Shown: one piece after another, positions 4,405 through 40,083 of the stretch
How positions within the stretch are numbered: position 1 is the first letter of the stretch
Layout: every line of letters starts with the position of its first letter
Source of the DNA: Deltaproteobacteria bacterium
GTDB taxonomy: Bacteria > Myxococcota_A > Polyangia > Polyangiales > JADJMO01
DNA: 64,000 nucleotides
Direction of reading: 5' to 3'
Assembly: GCA_022843175.1 (NCBI GenBank)
Contig: JALHOE010000003.1
Location: 1 to 64,000 of the forward strand
Position numbers and translations under genes: made by a program
Notes under the pieces: generated by a model
The model's input: only the letters and a program-made list of their open reading frames with translations
What the model was told of the DNA's origin: nothing
Databases searched by the model: none

Positions 4405-5560
4405 GCTGCTCGTCCTCGTTCTCCTCGTCGGCTGTAGCAACAAGCCAGCGGCCAACAAGTCGGAGAAGCCCGCTTCCGTTGCTCATCCGGCGGGCGAGAC
4501 CGAGCAGGCCGTCGTTACGCTGACGCCGCAGGCCGAGACGCGGATCGGTCTCGCGACGACAAAGGTCGTGATGGGCGCCATGCGCCGGACGAGAACGGTG
4601 CCCGGCGAAGTGGTCGTTCCCTCCGGTGGCCAGATCGCCTTCGTCTCGCCGTTCGCCGCGACGGTACGACCGATCTCGGCGACCAAGGCGCTGCCTCGAG
4701 CCGGGGATCTCGTTCATCGCAAAGAGAAGCTGCTGCGACTTGTCCCGCTTGCCCCCGCCGATCGGGACGTGCGCGCGCAAGCCGAGAAGACGCTCGCGGT
4801 CGCGGAGTCGCGTCTCCAGGGCGCGCAGCAAAAGCTCACACGCATGGAGAAGTTGCTCGCAGAGGGAGCTGCATCCGCGAAGCAGGTCGAGGAAGCAAGC
4901 GCCGATCGCGACGCCGCCGCCGCAGAGCTGGCCGCGGCGAAGAAGCGGCTCAGCGCGATCGACTCCTCACCGCTGTCGGCAGACGTCAGCGTCACGCTTG
5001 AAGCGCCCGCTGATGGCGTTGTGCGATTGTCGCCGGTCACCTCCGGTCAGCTTGTCGCGGCGGGCGGATCGGTGCTCGAGCTCGTTCAGAAGGGCGGGTT
5101 CTGGGTGAGAGCCAGCGTGTACGCGGGTGACGTCGCGTCGGTTCGCTCGGAGTCCGTAGCGAGGATAGCTTCGCTCGGCGCTGACCCGTTGACCACGGTC
5201 GACGCCAGCCCCGTGGCCGCGCCCCCGAGCGCGGATCCCTTGGCGTCGACCGTCGACTATTTCTTTGTGCTTCCCGAAAGCCCGATGCGCAAGCCCGGAG
5301 AGCGCGTGAGCGTGACGCTCGAACTGGTAGGCGATGAAGAGGCACTCCAGGTTCCCGCGTCCGCCGTCGTCTACGACGCCGCGGGTGGTAGCTGGATCTA
5401 CGAGAAGACGGGCGCGGGCAAGTACGCGCGCCGTCGGATCGATGTGGCGCGCTTCTCGGGGGATCGGGTCGTGCTTGCGAGAGGGCCGGCGTCGGGTACC
5501 GAGATCGTCTCCATCGGCGCCGCACAGCTGTTCGGCGTCGAGTTCGGTGCGGGTCACTGA
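4394..5560 (+). CDS. RND efflux periplasmic adaptor (lipoprotein)
   Basis: A 388-residue membrane-fusion protein linking inner membrane pump and outer membrane factor. The ATG at 4394 was chosen over an in-frame ATG at 4343 because it directly precedes a lipoprotein signal ([18 protein letters not shown]). A beta-barrel/lipoyl half ([18 protein letters not shown]), a helical hairpin (about 130-190, [22 protein letters not shown]) and the returning lipoyl half ([11 protein letters not shown]) appear in order. It overlaps the end of the outer membrane factor gene by 11 bases, and its stop overlaps the pump start (TGATG). No His-rich metal-binding tail is visible, so the substrate stays open. 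Confidence 0.92.
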
Positions 5561-8500
5561 TGCGCGGCCTCGTTGCGTGGTGCCTTCGGTACCGACTCGT
5601 CGTCGTCGCGGTCACGCTGGTCCTCGCCGTCGTCGGATATCGACGCGTCAAGGACACGCCGGTCGATGTCTTTCCCGAGTTCGCCCCACCGCTCGTCGAG
5701 GTTCAGACGGAGGCGCCGGGGCTCTCGAGCCTTGAGATCGAAGAGCTCGTCACGGCGCCCATCGAGCGGGCGGTCTTCGGCGTTCCCTTCCTCAAGACGG
5801 TTCGTTCGAAGTCGGTCCTCGGCCTCTCGTCGGTGGTGATGCTCTTCGCCGACGGCACGGACGTCCTCCAAGCACGGCAGCTGATCCAGGAGCGCATCGC
5901 CCGTGTTACCCCGCAGCTGCCAACGGCGTCGCACGCGCCGGTGATGCTCTCGCCGCTCTCGTCGACGAGCCGCATCCTCAAGATCGGGATCACCTCCACC
6001 ACGCTCGATCAAATCGCCCTCACCGACATCGTCCGCTGGACGGTGCGACCTCGCCTGCTCGCGGTGCCCGGTGTCGCCAACGTGGCGATTTGGGGCGAGC
6101 GAGACCGGCAGCTCAAGGTCGTCGTCGATCCGGCGAAGCTGCAAACCGCGAACGTGCAACTCGACGCCCTGATCGCGGCGTTGCGGGGCGGCGTCACGCC
6201 GGCAAGCGGAGGCTTCGTCGACACGGCCCTGCAGCGCCTCGCGCTGTCGCTCCGCCCGATGGCGACGACCGCGGCCGAGGTCGGGCAGATCGGGATCGGC
6301 ACGAAGGCGACGGCGCTGCGGATCAAAGACGTAGCAGAGGTGCGCGAGGGCCATCCACCGCCGATCGGAGACGCGGTCGTGAACGACGTGCCGGGCCTCC
6401 TCCTGATCGTCGAGAAGCAGCCGTGGGGGAATACCCTGGAGGTCACGCGGAAGGTGGAGGAGACCCTCTTCGCCCTCAAACCCGTATTCGCCAATGTGGA
6501 CGTCGATCCTCGGATCTTTCGCCCCGCGTCGTTCATAGAACGCGCGCTGGCGAACCTTCAGGAGACGCTGTTCGTCGGCTGCGTGCTCGTGATCATCATC
6601 CTCGCTGCGTTTCTCTACAACGTGCGCACAGCCGCCATCAGCGTGATCGCGATCCCGCTGTCGCTCCTCAGCGCCGCGATGGTGCTGAACCTTCGAGGCC
6701 GCACCATCGATACGATGGTGATCGCCGGTCTCGCGATCGCGCTGGGCGAGGTGGTGGACGACGCGATCATCGATGTCGAGAACGTGCTCCGGAGGCTACG
6801 ACTCGAGCAGCAGGAACCGAATCCGCGCCCTGCGTTCGACGTCGTGCTCGAAGCGTCGCTGGAGGTACGGAGCGCCGTCGTCTACGCGACTGCGATCGTC
6901 GCGCTGGTGTTCATGCCGGTGTTCTTTTTGGAGGGGCTGCCCGGCGCCTTCTTCCGTCCCCTCGCGTTGTCGTATGTGCTCGCGGTCGTGGCGTCGCTCG
7001 TCGTTGCTCTCACGGTAACGCCTGCGCTCTGTCTCCTGCTCCTGCCACGCACAGCGAAGACGCATCGAGAGGCGCCGCTCGCAACGTTCCTGCGCCGCAG
7101 CTTCGCGCCAGTCCTCGGTGCGTTGCTCGAGCGCCCGCGCCGCGCGCTCGCCTCGCTCGTGGTGATGATCGGGATCGCGGCAGCCGTCACACCCATGCTC
7201 GGGGAGTCGTTCCTGCCCGCGTTTCGCGAGAGCGACTTCCTCATGCATTGGGTTGGCAAACCAGGCACCTCCCTTGCCGAGATGCGGCGAACGATCGAGC
7301 TGGCGAGCAAGGAGCTCCGCGCGATCCCGGGCATCAAGCACTTCGGTTCGCACATCGGGCGCGCCGAAGTGGCCGATGAAGTCGTCGGCCCGAACTTCGC
7401 GGAGCTATGGATCAGCATCGACGATCAGGCCGATCACGCGCAGACCATCGCCAAGGTGAATGAGGTCGTCGAGGGCTACCCCGGGTTCTATCGAGACGTT
7501 CAAACCTACTTGCAGGAGCGCATCAAAGAGGTCCTCTCGGGCGGCAGCGGCTCGATCGTCATTCGCATCTACGGCACCGACCTCGAACGCCTGCGCATCG
7601 ACGCGGCCGCGGTTGGGCACAAGCTGGAGGGCGTCGCGGGCGTCGCGAACCTCAAGGTCGAACCGCAGGTGGTCGTCCCGCAGATCGACGTGCGCCTGCG
7701 CCCCGACGACCTCGCGCGAGCCGGATTCGCGGCCGTCGATGTTCAGCGCACTCTCGCCACCGTTTTACAGGGCACGCGCGTGGGCGAGATCGTACGCGAC
7801 GGTCGCCTTATGGAGGTCGTCGTCGTTGGCCACGACAGCCTGAAGTCGGACATCGCGTCGCTCGCCGACCTCCGACTGGTCTCGCCCAGCGGGGGGGTCA
7901 GTCGCCTCGGCGACATCGCTTCACTCGCGATCAACCCGGCGCCGAACATCGTCCCGCACGACAGCGGCTCGCGGAAGATCGATGTGTCCTGCGACGCAAA
8001 GGGGCGCGACCTCGGCGCCGTTGCGAAAGACGTCGCTGCCGCGCTCGCGGGCGTGCAGCTCGGCCCGGGCCATCACGCGGAGGTCACGGGGGAGTACGCG
8101 ACACGCGAACGTGCGCGCACGAATCTGCTCGGTCTCGCGGCGCTCTCTCTGCTCGGCGTAGGGATCGTCCTCTATGCGGACTTCAAGTCGTGGAAGCTCA
8201 CCCTGCTGGTACTTGCGACCCTCCCGCTCGCGCTGATCGGTAGTGTGGCTGCCGTCTTCTTCACCGGGCGGGTGGTGTCGCTCGGTTCGCTCGTGGGCTT
8301 CGTCACGGTGATCGGCATCGCGGCACGCAACGGGATCATGTTGGTGAGTCACTACCGGCATCTCGAGACCGAAGAGGGCGTCGCGTTCGGTCGTGAGCTG
8401 GTGCTGCAGGGAACGCTCGAGCGCCTCGCGCCGATCCTGATGACGGCGCTAGCGACTGCGCTCGCGCTCGTCCCGCTCGTCGCCTTCGGCGAACGCCCGG

Positions 8501-8628
8501 GGCAAGAAATCGAGCACCCGATGGCCATCGTCATCATTGGTGGTTTGGCAAGTTCGACGGTCCTCAACCTATTGCTCGTGCCGACGGCCTACCTGTTCTT
8601 GCGGCGTTCGACCGTCGCGGGCGTGTGA
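5560..8628 (+). CDS. RND efflux pump, heavy-metal (HME/CzcA-like) family
   Basis: A 1022-residue proton-driven inner membrane pump. The N-terminal helix is followed by the family signature [20 protein letters not shown], and twelve membrane helices are arranged in two halves. Helix 4 carries [14 protein letters not shown] with the acidic residues used for proton relay. This differs from the DFGxxVDGAV form of CzcA seen in the second pump of this window, so the two systems are not recent copies and may export different ions. The start overlaps the adaptor stop. No sign of truncation. Confidence 0.93.
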
Positions 8629-30723: not shown

Positions 30724-30968
30724 TGGGCGACACCCGCGCGGCCGCGCCGGTTCTTGGCGGCAGAGGTGCGCGGTGACTCCCTTGGCTCGTTGGACCGGCC
30801 CTCTGCTCCCCGGGGAATTTCGCCCATCCGGGGGAGGACCGCCCGGGCAAAGCGAAAACCCGCACCGCTGTGAGAGCTCCCGAGCCGCTGCCGCGCGCAA
30901 ACGACGCTCCCGAAAAATTCGTGTCCGTCCCACGGCGGATGGACCGCTGCTTGCCCTCCCAAACCGTC

Positions 30969-32069
30969 ATGGCGAACGAACGCCTCCGCCCGAGCGAGCT
31001 GTCGGATGCGTGGGCTGTGCTCTCCGATCCGGAGCGATCGGAGGGCCTCGGCCTCCTCGGGACCAAAGCGTGCGACTTCTTCCTCGCCCTCTCGCAGCAC
31101 GATCAGGCCTCCTTGATTCGACGCGCGGAAGACACGGAGCGCCGCCTTTGGATGCGCGTCCTTCCGCCTGAGGCAGCCGCGAACCTGTTGCAGGCCGTGC
31201 CCCCGCATGAGCGCACCGAGCTGCTGAAGCTCTTGGATGAGAGCAGTCAACATGAGGTGACCGCGCTCCTCGCCTACGACGAGGATGTCGCCGGCGGTCT
31301 CATGAGCCCCCGCTTTGCGCGGCTGCGGCCGTCGATGTCAGTCGACGAGGCGGTGCGTTACCTCCGGCGCCAAGCGCATGCACGCCTCGCGACGATCTAC
31401 TACGGATACGTGCTGGACCCCGACCAGCAGCTCGTGGGTGTCGTCTCGTTCCGCGATTTGTTCGTCGCGAGCGAGGACGCGCGCATCGCGGACGTGATGC
31501 GACGGCCGGTCATCACCGTTCGCGATGATCTCGACCAGGAGGCGGTCGCTCGAGTCATCGCGGAACACGGTCTTCACGCTGTGCCGGTGCTCGACGCCGA
31601 CGGGCGCATGCGCGGCGTCATCACCATCGATGATCTTGTCGACGTCGTGCAGCGCGAGGCGACGGAGGACATGCACAAGGTCGGCGGTATGGAGGCTCTC
31701 GATTCGCCGTACCTCGCCACGACGCCGCTGGCGATGGTGAAGCAGCGCGCCGGCTGGCTCGCCGCCCTCTTCCTCGGCGAGATGTTGACCGCGAGCGCGA
31801 TGTCGCATTTCGAGGCCGAGATCGCGCGCGCCGTCGTGCTCGCGCTCTTTGTGCCGCTGATCATCTCGAGCGGCGGCAACTCGGGGTCGCAAGCCACCAC
31901 GCTCGTCATTCGGGCGCTGGCGCTCGGCGAGTTGAAGCAGCAGGACTGGAGGCTCATCCTGCGCCGTGAGCTCATCGCCGGTGGCGCGCTCGGCGTGATC
32001 CTCGGCTCGATAGGCCTCGTCCGTAAGGGAAGGAGTCACCTCCGGCAAGGTGCCCATCGCGCCGTGTAG
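30969..32069 (+). pseudogene. MgtE-type Mg2+ channel, C-terminally truncated
   Basis: From the ATG at 30969 (GTG 30870 is possible) come 366 residues: an N domain (LSDAWAVLSDPERSEGLGLL, MRVLPPEAAANLLQAV), two CBS domains (YLRRQAHARLATIYYGYVLD; ITVRDDLDQEAVARVIAEHG) and a plug helix with the first membrane helices (FVPLIISSGGNSGSQATTLV). The pore signature is intact, but the protein ends at about helix 3 (RELIAGGALGVILGSIG, then an Arg-rich tail). Intact MgtE is about 450 residues with five helices; the missing part was not found in the next 200 bases. Probably non-functional as a channel. Confidence 0.72.
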
Positions 32070-32267: not shown

Positions 32268-32813
32268 CTATAGCTGTTCGTCGGGTGTCGGCGCGCAATC
32301 GCAGTCGAGACACTGCCGCGCGCTCTCCGTGCCACAAACGCGCGCCAGCTCGGCTCGTAGCGCCTTGCGAGCGCGATGTAGCCGCACCGTCGCGTTGTTC
32401 ACCGTGATGCCAAGAGAGGCTGCCACGTCCGGCAGCGGCTCCTCGAGCACGTCGAGCCGGCGGAGAACGTCGGCGTACTCCGCACGGACCGACTGCAGCA
32501 GCCCGAGGCTGCACGCGCACGTCGCCAGCTCCTCCTCCCCGGCCTCGCTCACCTCAGCCGCCAGCAACTGAGTCGCGTCGCGTTCGCGATCACGAGCCGT
32601 CCATCGATTGACGATTTCACGGCGAAGGATTCGGTAGAACCAGGGGACCGCGCGTTCCCGGTCGCGAAGCTGCTCGGCGTGCTCGCCCGCGCGAAGGATT
32701 GCCTGCTGGAACGCGTCGTCGGCGTCCGCTGGCGATCCCAAGCGCGCGCGCAGGAACGACAGGAAGCGGGGGCGCCGCTTGTGAAGCTCGCTGAGTAGAG
32801 CGTCTCGGTCCAT
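32268..32813 (-). CDS. ECF sigma factor with C-terminal Cys cluster (CorE-like)
   Basis: A 181-residue ECF sigma factor. Region 2 (about 10-78) contains LGSPADADDAFQQAILRAG and PWFYRILRREIVNRW. Region 4 (about 112-160) has RRLDVLEEPLPDVAASLGIT and RLHRARKALRAEL. A C-terminal extension follows with CGTESARQCLDCDC, that is C-x7-C-x2-C-x-C. In CorE-type (ECF44) sigma factors such a Cys-rich tail senses copper or another metal directly and replaces an anti-sigma factor; the match here is by pattern, not by alignment. It lies 11 bases downstream of the metallothionein-like frame and is likely co-transcribed with it from the promoter at 33016-33041. Confidence 0.85.
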   Translation of the reverse strand: MDRDALLSELHKRRPRFLSFLRARLGSPADADDAFQQAILRAGEHAEQLRDRERAVPWFYRILRREIVNRWTARDRERDATQLLAAEVSEAGEEELATCACSLGLLQSVRAEYADVLRRLDVLEEPLPDVAASLGITVNNATVRLHRARKALRAELARVCGTESARQCLDCDCAPTPDEQL

Positions 32814-32824
32814 GGTCTAGCTAG

Positions 32825-32972
32825 CTAGCGCTTCTTGGCGCAGCGGCACTTCGCAGCGCAGTCGCAGTCGGGGCCGCATTTTGCACGCCGGACCACAGCA
32901 GCAGTCCGTGCTCCTCGGGTCGCACGACTCGCAGCCCTTGCACGCACAAGCCGTCTCGGTGCACTTCGTCAT
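32825..32972 (-). pseudogene. Metallothionein-like Cys-rich peptide, +1 frameshift
   Basis: The minus-strand ATG at 32972 reads MTKCTETACACKGCESCDPR and then STDCCCGPACK. In the raw sequence the frame becomes Arg-rich and ends at 32817. Removing one A from the run of four at 32879-32882 gives CGPDCDCAAKCRCAKKR and a stop at 32825, so a 48-residue protein with 14 cysteines in CxC, CCC and CxxC patterns. Such density is metallothionein-like and would bind soft metal ions in the cytoplasm. It is the first gene in front of the ECF sigma factor. Whether the extra A is real or a sequencing error is open. Confidence 0.65.
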
Positions 32973-33015: not shown

Positions 33016-33041
33016 GACACCGGGCCCGCCGGATTCTTACA
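33016..33041 (-). promoter_or_regulatory. ECF-type promoter, metallothionein/sigma operon
   Basis: On the minus strand TGTAAG (33041-33036), 16 bases, TGTC (33019-33016), then AGCACC. The same spacing and wording occur in 33063-33088 and 40058-40083. The ATG of the Cys-rich peptide is about 45 bases downstream. Probably recognised by the ECF sigma factor encoded in the same operon (inference). Confidence 0.62.
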
Positions 33042-33062: not shown

Positions 33063-33088
33063 TGTAAGGGTCGGACCGGGTTGCCGTC
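33063..33088 (+). promoter_or_regulatory. ECF-type promoter, RND/CDF operon
   Basis: TGTAAG (33063-33068), 16 bases, CGTC (33085-33088), then AGCACC. It is the mirror image of 33016-33041, with 21 bases between the two -35 boxes. It would drive the Cys-bearing small protein, the RND operon and the CDF transporter. Confidence 0.65.
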
Positions 33089-33184
33089 AGCACCGGCAGA
33101 CCCATGAAACCAGCCGTCGCCGCCCGCATCCCCTACGGCTCTCTGAGTTGCGGCATGATCGGTAAACGCCTACAACTAAGCGAG

Positions 33185-33565
33185 ATGCGCCGCGACCGGG
33201 TCAGGAAGACTCGCCGTCTGCAACGAGCGTTCGCAATCATGTTGCGCGTGCTTGTGGCGCTGCTCGCGCTCCAGCTATCCGGGCTACCGCACGCCATCGA
33301 CGATCTCGCCGACGCTGTCGTCGCCGAAGCCGGCATCTCTCATCACGCCGGCTGCAACGAGGGCGACACCAACGACGCCGACTGTCCGCCGGGCTGCCCG
33401 AGCTGCCACTGCGTGCACCCGAACGTGTTGCCGCCGGCGCACACCGCCGATCTGTTCGGCTGGCACGTCGCGGGTGCTGAGCTCGCCGAGCTCCTCTACG
33501 ACCAGAACCAGCCGCTGCAGCCGCTCCTGCCGCACGTGTTTCGTCCTCCTCGCGCCGCCGCCTGA
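33185..33565 (+). CDS. Small secreted protein of metal efflux locus
   Basis: A 126-residue protein from the ATG at 33185 (ATG 33104 and 33239 are alternatives). The N-terminus is basic, then hydrophobic (IMLRVLVALLALQLSGLPHA), which fits a signal peptide. The mature part contains HHAGCNEGDTNDADC, then PPGCPSCHCVHPN, a His/Cys cluster suited to metal binding. Small proteins of this shape often precede CzcCBA-type operons in proteobacteria; their role is thought to be periplasmic metal handling but is not proven. First gene after the promoter at 33063. Confidence 0.7.
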   Translation: MRRDRVRKTRRLQRAFAIMLRVLVALLALQLSGLPHAIDDLADAVVAEAGISHHAGCNEGDTNDADCPPGCPSCHCVHPNVLPPAHTADLFGWHVAGAELAELLYDQNQPLQPLLPHVFRPPRAAA

Positions 33566-33626
33566 CTCGCGGGCGATTGAAGACACCGAAACAACTCGGC
33601 ACGCCGAGTCACGCGGGAGCACCGCT

Positions 33627-34823
33627 GTGCGACAACTATTTATATGGGCGATCGCCTTCATGGCGTTCGCTCCCCCGGCTCTTGCCACTGGGTGTGGCAA
33701 GCCGAAGCCCGACCAGAAGGCTGAGGCCAAACCGGCCGCTTCGACTCACAAGGATGAGCCCGCGCACGCGGAGCTCGCGAAGCGCGTGCGGCTTACGCCG
33801 CAGCTGATCGCAGACGCGAAGATCAAGACAGTCAAGGTCACGCGCGAGACGCTGATCACGAGCCTCTCTCTTCCCGGCGAGCTCTCGATCGACCCCGATC
33901 ACGCCGCCGAGATCTCGTCGCCGCTACCCGGTCGGGTGCAAGAGGTGACCTTCAAGGAGGGCAGCGTCGTGAAGAAGAACGACGTCCTCGCGCGGGTCGC
34001 GGTGACCGAGATCGGGAAGCTCCGCGCAGTCCAGTCCTCGGCGCTCGCTCACGCCAAGGCGGCGCGGGCCGAAGCGGATCGCCTCGCCCCCCTCGTGGCG
34101 AGCGGCGTGCGCGCGCAGCAGGAGCTCCTGAACGCGGAGGCACAGGCAAAGAGCAACGAGGCAGAGGCCAGCGGGATCGCGGCGCAGCTCGCGGCGATGA
34201 GCACTGCCGGCTCCACCCTCGGGGGCTCGAGCCAGATCGTCCTCCGCGCGCCGATGGATGGCGTCATTCTGACGCGTGACGCGGTCGTTGGCGGGGCGGT
34301 AACGAGCGAGCGTCCGCTGGCGAAGATGGCCGACCTCTCCGAAGCCTGGTTCCTCGCGCGGGTGTTCGAGAAGGATCTCGGCAAGCTGCGAGTCGGTGCC
34401 AAGGCGGACGTCACGCTGAATGCCTACCCAGCGGAGTCGTTCGCCGGAACGGTCGACTATCTCTCGCGCCAGATCGATCCGGTCGCGCGCACGGTCACCG
34501 CGCGGATTCGCGTCGCCAACCGCGATGACCTGCTGCGGATCGGCTTGTTCGGGACGGCGCGAATCGCGACCGGCGACGCTACGCCGCGTCCTGCGGTATT
34601 GGTCATACCCCGGTCGGCGATCATCGAGATCGCGGGCAAGCACGTGGCCTTCGTCCGCCACCCCGACGACGACTTCGAGCTCCACGAGCTTGTGCTCGGC
34701 GAGACCTCGGTAGGCAAAGTGGAAGTCGTCTCGGGTCTGCGCGAGGGCGAAGAGGTCGTGTCCGAGGGCGCGTTCACGCTCAAGAGCATGGTCCTCAAGA
34801 GCACCCTGGCCGAGGAGGACTGA
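33627..34823 (+). CDS. czcB: RND efflux periplasmic adaptor (CzcB/CusB-like)
   Basis: A 398-residue adaptor. The GTG at 33627, with GGGAG upstream, begins VRQLFIWAIAFMAFAPPALA and a lipoprotein-like GCGKPKPDQ. It carries the lipoyl half (SLPGELSIDPDHAAEISSPL), a helical hairpin (about 135-190), the second half (IVLRAPMDGVILTRDAVVGG), a barrel (LRVGAKADVTLNAYPAESFA) and the membrane-proximal domain. Closest in wording to CzcB/CusB adaptors of heavy-metal pumps. Its stop is directly followed by the pump ATG. Confidence 0.92.
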   Translation: MRQLFIWAIAFMAFAPPALATGCGKPKPDQKAEAKPAASTHKDEPAHAELAKRVRLTPQLIADAKIKTVKVTRETLITSLSLPGELSIDPDHAAEISSPLPGRVQEVTFKEGSVVKKNDVLARVAVTEIGKLRAVQSSALAHAKAARAEADRLAPLVASGVRAQQELLNAEAQAKSNEAEASGIAAQLAAMSTAGSTLGGSSQIVLRAPMDGVILTRDAVVGGAVTSERPLAKMADLSEAWFLARVFEKDLGKLRVGAKADVTLNAYPAESFAGTVDYLSRQIDPVARTVTARIRVANRDDLLRIGLFGTARIATGDATPRPAVLVIPRSAIIEIAGKHVAFVRHPDDDFELHELVLGETSVGKVEVVSGLREGEEVVSEGAFTLKSMVLKSTLAEED

Positions 34824-37800
34824 ATGGCCGCCCTCTCCGCCATCGTCGCTTGGTCGCTGAAGCACCGGGCGGTCGTCCTCGTCCTAACCGCGCTACTCGT
34901 ACTGGTTGGTCTTCAATCGGCGCATTCGTTGCCGATCGATGCCGTACCCGACGTCACCAACGTGCAGGTGCAGATCATCACCACCGCACCTGCGCTCTCG
35001 CCGGTCGAGATCGAGCAGTACATCACAGTGCCGGTCGAGCGCGCGATGGGAGGCCTTCCGCGAGCGACGCAGGTCCGCTCGATTTCGAAGCCCGGGATCT
35101 CGGTGGTGACGATCGTCTTTCGCGACGACACGCCGATCTACTTCGCGCGTCAGCTGGTCAACGAACGAATGCGCGACGTTCAGGAGGCGGTGAAGCACGG
35201 CAAGCCCGACATGGGCCCGATCAGCAGCGGCCTCGGCGAGATCTTTCAGTTCGTCGTTCGCAACGAGGGCATGAACGCCATGCAGCTCCAAGAGGTGCTG
35301 AAGTGGCAGATTGCCCCCGCGCTGCGGGCGGTGCCCGGCATCGTCGAGGTCAACGCGTTCGGCGGAGAGGAACGCCAGTACCAAATCGTTCTCGATCCCA
35401 AGCGCCTGCAAGCGTCGGGTCTCTCGGTGATGCAGGTCGTTGGGGCGCTCAAAAAGTCCAACGCCAACGCGGGCGGCGGCTATTTGGAGCACGATCGCGA
35501 GCAGGTCGTGATCGGCACCGACGGCCTGGTCAAGAGCCTCGACGACCTTCGGCGCGTCGTCATCGGTGCCACGCCGCAAGGTACGCCAATCACAGTCGCG
35601 ACCGTCGGCGACGCACGCTTCGGCGCGCGGCTTCGTCTCGGAGCTGCGACCAAGGATGGGAAGGGCGAGGTCGTGATCGGCGTTGCGATGATGCTCCTCG
35701 GGGAGAACTCGCGCACCGTGACCGAGGCGGTCAAAACGAAGCTCGCCTCGCTGCAGGCATCGCTGCCGCCGGGGACCAGGGTCGAGTCGTTCTACGACCG
35801 CTCGGTCCTGGTCAATCGCACGATGAGCACCGTTGCCCGGAATCTTATCGAGGGCGCCCTGCTCGTCATCGCCGTGCTGTTTCTCTTGCTCGGCGATGTA
35901 CGTGCGGGCTTGATCGTCGCGCTCACCATCCCCTTGTCGCTGCTCTTCGCGGTGACCGCGATGAACGCCTTCGGCCTGTCCGGAAACCTGATGAGTCTCG
36001 GCGCGATCGACTTCGGTCTGCTGGTCGACGGGGCCGTCATCATCGTGGAGAACGCCGTCCGACGGGTAGATCTGCGCCAGAGAGAGCTCGAACGGGAGCT
36101 CGGCGACGAGGAACGAGTCGACGTGGTGCGCGAAGCCACGATCGAGGTGCGCGCCGCCAGCGTCTACGGCGAGGCCATCATCGCGATCGTGTACTTCCCG
36201 ATCCTCGCGTTGAGCGGCATCGAGGGGAAGCTGTTTCGCCCGATGGCGACGACCGTGCTCCTCGCGCTCGCCGGCGCATTCATCTTCTCGCTGACAACTG
36301 TGCCGGTGCTCGCCAGCCTCGCGGTGCGGCGAAAGGTGGCCGCCGCGCACGACGAGACGTGGATCGTGCGCAAGGTGCACGCCGCGTTCCTGCCTGCGCT
36401 GTCGTGGGCGATGCGTGCTCGGTTCGCGACCATCGGCGTCTCGGTCCTGGCCTTCGCCGCCGCCATCACCCTGTTCACTCGCATCGGGGCGGAGTTCGTG
36501 CCGCAGCTCGACGAAGGCGATTTGCTGGTCGAGGCGCGCCGTTTGCCCGGCGTATCCCTTACGCAGTCCGTGCAGCTCGACGGGCGAATGCAGAAGGCCG
36601 TGCTGGAGATTCCCGAGGTGCTCCATGCAGTTGGGCGCGCGGGCGCGCCGGCGATCGCCAACGATCCGATGGGCATCGAGCAGACCGATCTGTACCTCAA
36701 CCTCAAGGAGCGCGGTTCGTGGCGACCGGGTCTAACGCGAGACGCCCTCATCCGAGTAATCACCGAGAAGCTGGAGCAGCGCGTGCCCGAGGTCGGCGTT
36801 GGCATCTCCCAGCCGATCCAGATGCGAACCAACGAGCTCATAGCCGGAGTCCGGTCAGACGTTGCCGTCCTCCTGTACGGGAGCGATCTCGACCAGCTCG
36901 CAAAGCTGGGCGCAGCGATCGCCGACATCGCGGGTAAGGTGCCGGGTGCCGTCGATGTGCGCCTCGAGCAAGTCGCGGGGCTTCGATATCTCCGTGTTGT
37001 TCCGGACCGTGCGCGTCTCGCGCGCTACGGCCTCACGATCGAGGACGTTAATGTCGTCACCGAGACGATGGCGGTCGGCCACCCCGTCGGCGAGGTGCTG
37101 GAGGGGGACCGCCGATTCGAGATGGTCGTGCAGTCGGGGCACGAGTTCGTGGGCGACTTGGAGCCGCTGCGAGCGCTGCCTCTACGCTCGCTGAGCGGAC
37201 AGATCGTGCCGCTCGGCGACGTCGCAACGCTCGCCTTCACGACCGGCCCTGCGCAAATCAGCCGCGAGAATCAATCACGGCGCATCACTGTCGAGTTCAA
37301 CGTGCGCGGTCGTGATCTCCTCACGGTCGTTCGCGAGGTCGAGGCGCGAATCGCTCGGGAGGTGTCGCTCCCCAGCGCTTACCGAATCGAGGTCGGTGGC
37401 CAGTTCGAGCACTACCTCGACGCCCGCTCTCGGCTCGTTGTCGTGGTTCCGCTCTCGCTGGCGTTCATCTTCTTTCTGCTGTTCGTGGCGACTGACTCGC
37501 TCCGCAGCGCGGCTGTGATCTTCCTTGGCGTTCCCTTCGCCGTCGTCGGCGGCGTAGTGGCACTCGCTCTGCGCGGGATGCCGTTCTCGATCTCGGCCGG
37601 CATCGGATTCATCGCGTTGTTCGGCGTCGCAGTCCTCAACGGGTTGGTCCTGGTCTCCTTTGCTCGTCACCTCGAAGCAGAGGGAATGAATCCCATCGAA
37701 TCGATGCGCCGGGCTGCAGAGCTTCGACTCCGGCCGGTCCTCATGACCGGGCTCGTCGCGGCGCTCGGCTTTCTCCCGATGGCGCTCTCCAGTGCGCCGG

Positions 37801-37934
37801 GGTCAGAGGTTCAACGGCCGCTGGCGACCGTCGTCATCGGCGGCCTGCTCAGCGCCACGCTCCTCACACTGCTCGTTCTGCCGGTCGTCGACGCGGTGAC
37901 GCGCGGCCGCAATGTTCCGCCGAGGTCCGCATGA
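34824..37934 (+). CDS. czcA: Heavy-metal RND pump, CzcA family
   Basis: A 1036-residue proton-driven pump. It starts AALSAIVAWSLKHRAVVLVL and has the signatures LPIDAVPDVTNVQVQIITTA and, in helix 4, DFGLLVDGAVIIVENAVRR (the HME1 form of Zn/Co/Cd pumps, with two relay Asp). The periplasmic docking and porter domains are complete and the C-terminus ends in a helix plus Arg-rich tail. The family expels Zn2+, Co2+, Cd2+ or Ni2+; the exact ion cannot be read from sequence. Overlaps the downstream outer membrane factor by 4 bases (ATGA). Confidence 0.95.
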   Translation: MAALSAIVAWSLKHRAVVLVLTALLVLVGLQSAHSLPIDAVPDVTNVQVQIITTAPALSPVEIEQYITVPVERAMGGLPRATQVRSISKPGISVVTIVFRDDTPIYFARQLVNERMRDVQEAVKHGKPDMGPISSGLGEIFQFVVRNEGMNAMQLQEVLKWQIAPALRAVPGIVEVNAFGGEERQYQIVLDPKRLQASGLSVMQVVGALKKSNANAGGGYLEHDREQVVIGTDGLVKSLDDLRRVVIGATPQGTPITVATVGDARFGARLRLGAATKDGKGEVVIGVAMMLLGENSRTVTEAVKTKLASLQASLPPGTRVESFYDRSVLVNRTMSTVARNLIEGALLVIAVLFLLLGDVRAGLIVALTIPLSLLFAVTAMNAFGLSGNLMSLGAIDFGLLVDGAVIIVENAVRRVDLRQRELERELGDEERVDVVREATIEVRAASVYGEAIIAIVYFPILALSGIEGKLFRPMATTVLLALAGAFIFSLTTVPVLASLAVRRKVAAAHDETWIVRKVHAAFLPALSWAMRARFATIGVSVLAFAAAITLFTRIGAEFVPQLDEGDLLVEARRLPGVSLTQSVQLDGRMQKAVLEIPEVLHAVGRAGAPAIANDPMGIEQTDLYLNLKERGSWRPGLTRDALIRVITEKLEQRVPEVGVGISQPIQMRTNELIAGVRSDVAVLLYGSDLDQLAKLGAAIADIAGKVPGAVDVRLEQVAGLRYLRVVPDRARLARYGLTIEDVNVVTETMAVGHPVGEVLEGDRRFEMVVQSGHEFVGDLEPLRALPLRSLSGQIVPLGDVATLAFTTGPAQISRENQSRRITVEFNVRGRDLLTVVREVEARIAREVSLPSAYRIEVGGQFEHYLDARSRLVVVVPLSLAFIFFLLFVATDSLRSAAVIFLGVPFAVVGGVVALALRGMPFSISAGIGFIALFGVAVLNGLVLVSFARHLEAEGMNPIESMRRAAELRLRPVLMTGLVAALGFLPMALSSAPGSEVQRPLATVVIGGLLSATLLTLLVLPVVDAVTRGRNVPPRSA

Positions 37935-39136
37935 AGAAGCGATCGTTTCTCTGCATGTCACTTTTGTTCTGGGCGGCATCTGCGAGCGCCGATCCGGTGC
38001 TCGACCGGGCGGAGGTTCTGCGTCGGGCCCAGAAGAGTGCGCCCGTCCTCGCCATCGCCGGAGCGCGCGTCGCTCAGACGAAGGCTTCGATCAACGGCAC
38101 CTCTCTCGTCTCTCTCGAGAACCCGACCGTTTTCCTGCTCGGAGGTGTGCGGTTCGGCGACCCAAAGACACCTGAGTTCCGAGGTCAGCTCGCGGTGCCG
38201 TTCGACCTCGGCGGCCGTCCTTCGGCACGACGCGAGACCGCCGAGGCCTCCGTCCGAGTCGCCGCGGCGGAAGCGGAGGACACGGCTCGGCTAACGGCGC
38301 GCGAGGCGCTCATGCGGTGGGCTCGGGCCGTGCGTGACACCAAGATGCTCGCGCTCGCACGAGACCGCCTGAAGATCGCCGAGGCGCTCCTCGACGCGGC
38401 GAAGAAGCGCGTCGCGGCGAAGGATCTCGGCACCGGTGACGTGGCGCTCCTCGAGCTCGAACGCGCTCGGGATGCCGCCGCCGTGGCGCAGGCGGTGGGC
38501 AACGCGCAGTCGAGCGCGATCCTGCTCGGTGCGTTCATCGGCGCTCCCGGAGACCCGACGGTGTCCGGTGAGCTCGTCGACGAGGCACCGATGCCAACGC
38601 TCGAGTCCCTTCTCGCAGCGGTCGACAAGCGCCCCGACGTGCGCGCTGTGTCCGCTGAGATCATCGAGGCTCGCGCGCGCTCGGGGCTCGCCAAGGCCGA
38701 CCGTTGGCCCACGCTGAATCTTGTTGGCACGTACGAGTACCACGAGTCCACGAACTTCGTTCTCGTTGGTCTCTCGATGCCGATCCCGGTGTTCAACGCC
38801 AACACGCAGACAGTTGCAACCACCACCGCAGCGATCGACGTGGCGAACGCGCGGCTGGAGGCTGCACGCGCGATGGCGCTCGGCGAAATTCGTGCAGCCT
38901 GGAAGCGTTGGTCGGCCGCGCGCGAGGCGCTCACTACCATCCGGGCAACCGCTGCGCCGGCCGCGGCAGCGATCGACGCGACCGCGCAGTCATTCCTCGC
39001 GGGCAAGTCCTCTATCGTCGAGGTGCTCCTTGTGCGACGCGTGGCCAACGAGGCGGCGGTGGACCGCATCGCTGCGGAGCTCACGTTCGCCGAGTCACGA
39101 ATAGAGCTCGATGCCTCCGCCGGGAGGTTGCCGTGA
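37931..39136 (+). CDS. czcC: Outer membrane efflux protein (CzcC/TolC-like)
   Basis: A 401-residue outer membrane factor with a signal peptide (MKKRSFLCMSLLFWAASASA). It has two copies of the TolC repeat (from VLRRAQKSAPVLAIAGARVA and from LESLLAAVDKRPDVRAVSAE), with SLENPTVFLLGG and LVGLSMPIPVFNANTQT at the equatorial loops. It completes the CBA pump. The start overlaps the pump stop (ATGA) and its stop overlaps the CDF start (GTGA), so translation is coupled through the whole operon. Confidence 0.92.
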   Translation: MKKRSFLCMSLLFWAASASADPVLDRAEVLRRAQKSAPVLAIAGARVAQTKASINGTSLVSLENPTVFLLGGVRFGDPKTPEFRGQLAVPFDLGGRPSARRETAEASVRVAAAEAEDTARLTAREALMRWARAVRDTKMLALARDRLKIAEALLDAAKKRVAAKDLGTGDVALLELERARDAAAVAQAVGNAQSSAILLGAFIGAPGDPTVSGELVDEAPMPTLESLLAAVDKRPDVRAVSAEIIEARARSGLAKADRWPTLNLVGTYEYHESTNFVLVGLSMPIPVFNANTQTVATTTAAIDVANARLEAARAMALGEIRAAWKRWSAAREALTTIRATAAPAAAAIDATAQSFLAGKSSIVEVLLVRRVANEAAVDRIAAELTFAESRIELDASAGRLP

Positions 39137-40023
39137 GCGGAGGGCACGATCACTCGCACCGCGGTGCGAATAAGAAGCGAATGGCCATCGCTCTGGGCCT
39201 TACCTCCGCGTATTTGATCGCCGAGGTCATTGGGGCGATCGTTACGCGAAGCCTCGCGTTGCTCGCCGACGCCGGCCACATGCTCACAGATGTGGCGGGG
39301 ATAGCGCTCGCGCTCTTCGCAATGAGATTCGCCGAGAAGCCAGCCACCCCCGAGAGGACTTACGGCTACCACCGCGTCGAGATCGTCGCCGCGCTCGCGA
39401 ACGCGGTGACGCTGATCCTGATCTCGCTCTACGTCCTCTACGAGGCGGTGCTGCGCTTTCGCACGCCGGTCGCGGTGGCCGGAAAGCCGATGCTGTTCGT
39501 CGCGGCGATCGGCTTGGTCGTGAACCTGATCGCGCTCTCAGTCCTTCGCGGAGGCTCGCAGGACAGCCTGAACATGAAGGGCGCCTACTTCGAGGTGCTC
39601 TCCGACATGCTCACCTCGGTGGGCGTGATCATTGCGGCGGTCGTGGTCCTCACGACCGGCTGGACGTACATCGATCCGTTGGTGTCGGCGGGCATCGGCT
39701 TGTTCATCTTTCCCCGCACATGGCGATTGCTGAAGGAGGCCGTCGGCGTGCTCCTCGAGGGCACGCCGGCCGACGTCAACATCACGGCGCTCCGCGAAGC
39801 GATGGCGTCGGTGGCGGGCGTCTCCGACGTGCATGATCTCCACGTGTGGAGCCTGACCTCGGGTGTGAACGCGATGAGCGCCCACGTCGTGCAGGCGGAC
39901 GGCGCACCGCACGACGTTGTCAGGGCGGCGGTGCGAGCTCGAGTGGCGAGCGACTTCAAGATCGCGCACGTGACGCTGCAGGTCGAGGCTTCAGCGTGCG
40001 GTGAGGAGCACCTGCACCTCTGA
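39133..40023 (+). CDS. czcD: CDF cation efflux protein (CzcD-like)
   Basis: A 296-residue cation diffusion facilitator starting at GTG 39133. His-rich N-terminus (GGHDHSHRGANKK), six membrane helices and a cytoplasmic C-terminal domain with SDVHDLHVWSLTSG. Helix 2 has the metal-site HMLTD (HxxxD). In helix 5 the usual HxxxD is ExxxD (YFEVLSDMLTSVG), which may change ion preference. It moves metal from cytoplasm to periplasm, where the RND pump can take it on. Confidence 0.93.
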   Translation: MSGGHDHSHRGANKKRMAIALGLTSAYLIAEVIGAIVTRSLALLADAGHMLTDVAGIALALFAMRFAEKPATPERTYGYHRVEIVAALANAVTLILISLYVLYEAVLRFRTPVAVAGKPMLFVAAIGLVVNLIALSVLRGGSQDSLNMKGAYFEVLSDMLTSVGVIIAAVVVLTTGWTYIDPLVSAGIGLFIFPRTWRLLKEAVGVLLEGTPADVNITALREAMASVAGVSDVHDLHVWSLTSGVNAMSAHVVQADGAPHDVVRAAVRARVASDFKIAHVTLQVEASACGEEHLHL

Positions 40024-40057: not shown

Positions 40058-40083
40058 TGTAAGAGCTCGGGCTGGGGCGCGTC
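40058..40083 (+). promoter_or_regulatory. ECF-type promoter, DUF3703 gene
   Basis: TGTAAG (40058-40063), 16 bases, CGTC (40080-40083), then TGCACC. Third copy of the element found at 33016 and 33063. The DUF3703 ATG is about 44 bases downstream. This makes the DUF3703/TPR genes part of the same predicted regulon. Confidence 0.62.

Follow-up and report, generated by a model that had tools for sequence, protein, structure and literature searches.

When a short reading frame loses its cysteines at a run of four A directly in front of a gene for an ECF sigma factor, does it represent a true metallothionein gene disrupted by a single base, and what would such a gene do beside that sigma factor? 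The question is raised by positions 32825..32972 (minus strand) of the 64 kb stretch of DNA analysed here (hereafter the window), which derives from a 9.75 Mb draft assembly in 470 contigs. An earlier note on the same DNA had read the frame as a metallothionein-like peptide with a one-base break. Here we report that this reading is upheld by scoring against a profile that leaves out the window and by homologs in related genomes. On our best reading, the peptide belongs to a new metallothionein family, apparently undescribed to date, that is co-transcribed with a metal-responsive, CorE-like sigma factor; the combination of the two in one operon is what appears to be new here.

A cysteine-rich frame interrupted by one base

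From the ATG at 32972 (minus strand), preceded at a distance of 6 bases by a Shine-Dalgarno-like AGGAG, the raw frame reads MTKCTETACACKGCESCDPRSTDCCCGPACK|MRPRLRLRCEVPLRQEAL.., its cysteines being lost behind the AAAA run at 32882-32879, and ends 3 nt ahead of the sigma factor ATG. As the earlier note had claimed, skipping one A yields on translation a peptide of 48 aa with 14 Cys, MTKCTETACACKGCESCDPRSTDCCCGPACKCGPDCDCAAKCRCAKKR*, in which MTKCTETACACKGCESCDPRSTDCCCGPACK is followed by CKCGPDCDCAAKCRCAKKR and then by a stop codon (32827-32825) located 11 nt ahead of the sigma factor ATG at 32813. The corrected peptide, encoded by a gene that is disrupted in the assembly, has the general traits of metallothioneins, which are short, with about 20-30% Cys, CXC and CC motifs and few aromatic residues. 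The five Cys regained behind the break (positions 32, 36, 38, 42 and 44) all fall in columns conserved among homologs, which are invariant in the closer intact homologs, C42 being kept in more than 90% of the wider set.

The frame was scored against a profile of 18 homologs from which the window was excluded; scores obtained in homolog searches with the window's own peptide are circular for the window and were set aside as evidence. The best match of this profile across the whole genome was 32828-32884 (minus strand, model positions 34-52, E 0.0125); the upstream half of the gene alone fell short of the E 1 limit in the same search. When every possible single-base insertion and deletion in the peptide gene was scored, removal of any one of the four A's came out on top, with 68.2 bits against 34.0 bits for the raw sequence. 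Composition inflates the profile scores of Cys-rich peptides, and because these were computed without composition correction a control was supplied within the window: at any other place in the 64 kb, the highest score for two frames joined by a single indel was 19.7 bits.

Homologs in Myxococcota

Searches of the order, class and phylum (Myxococcota) yielded intact homologs in more than 30 genomes, and 34 homologous loci were assembled for comparison. The encoded peptides are mostly 50-59 aa long with 9-16 Cys and share the core CCCG..C.C...C.C...C.C, with 13 Cys columns invariant among the 18 best homologs. The earlier note had named two outcomes that would speak against it, an absence of homologs and homologs devoid of the Cys-rich second half; what we found instead is that this half lies in frame in nearly all of the 34 loci. 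When the genome contig collection was scanned, the alignment-based search independently gave two confirmed loci, in Lujinxingia vulgaris and in a Sandaracinaceae MAG, and the single-protein search with the window peptide gave none. Searches of plasmids and of viral contigs for the family found no members. Two further loci, L076 (G014) and L051 (G019), have more distantly related Cys-rich peptides (MQS.STNVSACACC...) whose core is similar but which are accompanied by neither a sigma factor nor the promoter motif.

Curated libraries offer no counterpart. None of seven family members, and not the window peptide, had a significant match in Pfam or NCBIfam, including their metallothionein families, and 18 members compared with Pfam gave insignificant matches only (Metallothio_5, E 0.38; Metallothio_2, E 1.8). 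The family profile retrieved from PDB sequences solely the metallothionein of the snail Littorina (E 0.15 and 0.21), and this search revealed no relation to the solved bacterial metallothioneins of the SmtA/BmtA type. The earlier remark that the gene is too small and too broken for routine gene calling holds for the broken frame of the window; elsewhere the family is intact and is unmodelled by Pfam and NCBIfam. In the open-licence papers searched, the pairing of a metallothionein with an ECF or CorE sigma factor is undescribed, and a description elsewhere is possible.

The linked sigma factor

The gene downstream of the peptide (32268..32813, minus strand) encodes a SigZ/CorE-like ECF sigma factor of 181 aa, which matches Sigma70_r2 (4.4e-11) and Sigma70_r4_2 (1.2e-6) in Pfam, and thus has both ECF regions sigma2 and sigma4, and matches the SigZ family below its cutoff. 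The search for intact homologs beside CorE-like sigma factors, which the earlier note had proposed, bore out the pairing: in 24 of the 34 loci the peptide gene is followed by a related sigma factor gene of the same orientation, which starts within about 120 nt in 22. It lies on the opposite strand in three loci (one of them, G105, cut by the contig end) and is absent nearby in the other seven.

A CXC motif in the linker, TCAC in the window, is present in every readable sigma homolog, and a tail CG-x5-7-C-x2-C-x-C in nearly all of them, the window tail reading C-x7-C-x2-C-x-C. The CRD of Myxococcus xanthus CorE has its cysteines at 181, 184, 189, 192, 194 and 206, and Cys184 was termed absolutely conserved among the 21 CRD sigma factors of 2011 (PMC3107203). 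The window protein has equivalents of Cys181, 189, 192 and 194, the residue equivalent to 184 not being Cys, and so retains three of the four invariant Cys of the CorE CRD (181, 184, 192 and 194); all five equivalents occur in the sigma factors of L102, L104, L105, L078 and L080. The earlier designation as CorE-like therefore stands for the design, that is, the linker CXC and the Cys tail, and fails for strict membership, because the equivalent of Cys184, a published invariant, is missing. In a rough tree with sigma factors from genomes of the same order, the window sigma factor clusters with those of another family (f12) rather than with its own genus or family, which suggests acquisition by horizontal transfer.

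A promoter motif shared by the family

The pattern TGTAA-N16-19-GTC lies 39-136 nt 5' of the start codon in 29 of 35 peptide genes, the window included, and in 0.17% of random segments from the same loci. The window copy is a putative ECF-type promoter, TGTAAGAATCCGGCGGGCCCGGTGTC (33016..33041, minus strand), which stands 69 nt ahead of the peptide gene's ATG; a second, divergent copy, TGTAAGGGTCGGACCGGGTTGCCGTC (33063..33088, plus strand), stands back to back with it, so that one is directed toward the peptide-sigma pair and the other toward a CzcBAC/CDF operon. The strict motif has three occurrences in the 9.75 Mb genome, these two and one that was discounted since it lies within coding sequence adjoining ftsA. 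A further match in the window, at 40058-40083, is no more than chance would produce. Four other genomes, 7-12 Mb in size (G028, G038, G095 and G131), each contain a single match to a comparably strict pattern, located before the metallothionein gene, and no match to the reversed control pattern. From this position and specificity we infer that the sigma factor recognises the motif. Some homologs with no sigma factor nearby (G134, G093, G031 and G147) still carry the motif, which fits control in trans. In G031 a lipoprotein gene takes the place of the sigma factor next to the metallothionein, and the only other strict match in that genome (L119, G031:C116, 1372-1397, minus strand) faces a putative secreted lipoprotein.

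The possibility that the peptide is a chance Cys-rich frame, of the sort that TGC and TGT codons readily create in GC-rich DNA, was ruled out for practical purposes, since more than 30 genomes conserve the peptide together with its invariant Cys, its place in the operon and its promoter, and by the in-window controls of indel scoring.

The divergent efflux operon and its surroundings

The fit with neighbouring metal genes that the earlier note had pointed out is borne out by the genes behind the divergent motif. The first is a small ORF with a CPPGCPSCHC motif (33104..33565, plus strand; start uncertain), for which Pfam and NCBIfam gave no match. On the same strand follow an RND efflux periplasmic adaptor of CzcB/CusB type (33630..34823, start approximate), a heavy-metal RND pump of the CusA/CzcA family (34824..37934, 1036 aa), an outer-membrane efflux protein, CzcC/TolC-like (37931..39136), and a CDF cation efflux transporter (39130..40023, start approximate). 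The pump carries the signature DFGLLVDGAVIIVEN, which we take to be akin to that of the Zn/Co/Cd class. Among the loci checked, efflux genes adjoin the peptide-sigma pair in the window only, apart from RND-like pieces near the copy in G030. Another RND permease, CusA/CzcA-related and below the family cutoff, lies at 5560-8628 (plus strand).

On the other side, next to where the sigma factor gene ends, an mgtE gene (30870-32069, plus strand) is truncated: it reaches only position 376 of the 450 in the model, and no other frame continues it. Its edge is possibly the junction of an island. Another contig of the same genome (L002, G000:C56, 1501-2214) has the locus a second time in degenerate form, without metallothionein or the remainder of the sigma factor, with 95.6% identity to window positions 33142-33685, the small ORF being strongly conserved, and 84.7% identity to the 5' end of the sigma factor gene (32708-32779).

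Origin of the extra base

Two accounts of the extra A are about equally likely. We give an even chance to an error of sequencing or assembly, the gene being intact in the organism. The sequence behind the break is perfectly preserved through 17 codons, with every conserved Cys and with a stop correctly placed before the sigma factor gene, none of the homologs is broken at the AAAA site, and the assembly, with its 470 contigs, is a draft. On the other hand, since the long neighbouring genes (the 1036-aa CzcA, CzcC, CDF and the sigma factor) are unbroken, indel errors must be uncommon in this contig, and four is a short run for a homopolymer error, the window containing 54 A/T runs of four and seven of five.

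The probability that the base is a real and very recent slippage mutation, leaving a fresh pseudogene or a first half with 9 Cys that is still produced, we place a little below even. Frameshifts in A runs are common mutations, and the region appears to be evolving, because mgtE is truncated and a degenerate partial copy exists on C56. Moreover, as the raw stop lies just before the sigma factor ATG, translation of the sigma factor need not suffer, whether the base is error or mutation. Against a mutation speak the undecayed codons downstream of the break and the retained promoter and sigma factor, which suggest a module in use. Were the base real, the window copy of the peptide may be non-functional because its frame is broken. 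The peptide is absent from the same-genus genome G001 and from three same-family genomes, so that a sister sequence by which to judge the base is lacking.

We regard it as very improbable that the AAAA run itself allows the full peptide to be made, through programmed +1 frameshifting or through transcript slippage. The lysine tRNA that reads AAA could pair anew once it had slipped by +1 on AAAA, but a run of at least four A's occurs at this place in none of the 34 homologs, whose frames are continuous, the polymerase would have only a short run on which to slip, and a ribosome-stalling stop codon is absent at the site.

Proposed working of the module

We consider it likely that the pair forms a metal-responsive operon of two genes, the first for a small metallothionein of the cytosol and the second for a CorE-like ECF sigma factor. 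An excess of a thiophilic metal (Zn/Cd/Co or Cu) would bind the Cys of the sigma factor's linker and tail and render it active; the active factor would transcribe its own operon from TGTAA-N16-19-GTC and, in the window genome, the divergent CzcBAC/CDF operon as well. The metallothionein would then buffer cytosolic metal during its export by the pumps, and the resulting fall in free metal should help to switch the sigma factor off again.

A bolder form of this proposal, which we advance as a tentative possibility, is a stress module widespread in Myxococcota in which the sigma factor shares one transcript with its off-switch, the metallothionein withdrawing its metal and so replacing both the missing anti-sigma factor and the missing function of Cys184. 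Less probable still is that the peptide is no general buffer at all and acts as a dedicated partner of the sigma factor, a metal donor or metal-dependent inhibitor that would be the missing anti-sigma factor of the CorE-like group. The tight pairing is in keeping with such a role, as is the lack of a linked anti-sigma factor in CorE-like sigma factors (PMC3107203); in CorE, Cys189 is the main residue for activation and Cys184 for inactivation (PMC3107203), and the window sigma factor and most partners lack an equivalent of the latter. Yet homologs with the promoter and no nearby sigma factor exist (in the four genomes listed above), the linked sigma factors of L102, L104 and L080 keep the Cys184 equivalent, and 14-16 Cys would suit multi-metal clusters.

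Bacterial metallothioneins are seldom recognised, owing to their small size and to a shortage of good models. Under the likelier reading, that of a metallothionein and its metal-responsive sigma factor, they gain a family with over 30 members that curated libraries miss. The paired regulator and promoter make the family easy to find and to test, and for the CorE-like sigma factors, two of which have been reported as experimentally studied, there would be a well-defined set of targets and a possible shut-off mechanism.

Comparison with known systems

The closest parallels are CorE and CorE2 of M. xanthus (ECF44, now ECF238), which likewise combine a CXC between sigma2 and sigma4 with a C-terminal Cys tail; they too lie near metal-handling genes, and we noticed no anti-sigma gene near the window locus. 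The CRD of CorE is essential for its metal response (PMC3107203; PMC8999054), and the Cys of the window sigma factor at i, i+8, i+11 and i+13 reproduce the spacing of Cys181, 189, 192 and 194. Besides the missing Cys184 equivalent, the window system differs in the metallothionein ahead of the sigma factor, undescribed for CorE, and in its presumed promoter, TGTAA-N16-19-GTC, whereas the search for the -35 element of CorE was anchored on AAC.

With SmtA, BmtA and PsdMT of cyanobacteria and pseudomonads the peptide shares its small size, its Cys richness and a bacterial metal context. SmtA is a zinc-finger-containing metallothionein under the divergent repressor SmtB (PMC7387436); the window peptide, in contrast, would rely on Cys alone, has almost no His and is apparently under sigma factor control. 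MymT of Mycobacterium tuberculosis is also a short, metal-controlled bacterial metallothionein, governed by the repressor RicR (PMC10141476). The divergent operon, finally, resembles CzcCBA in its CzcB/A/C-type RND efflux genes, here accompanied by a CDF transporter. CzcCBA is usually regulated by a two-component or CnrYXH system, whereas the presumed regulator in the window is a CorE-like sigma factor with a metallothionein.
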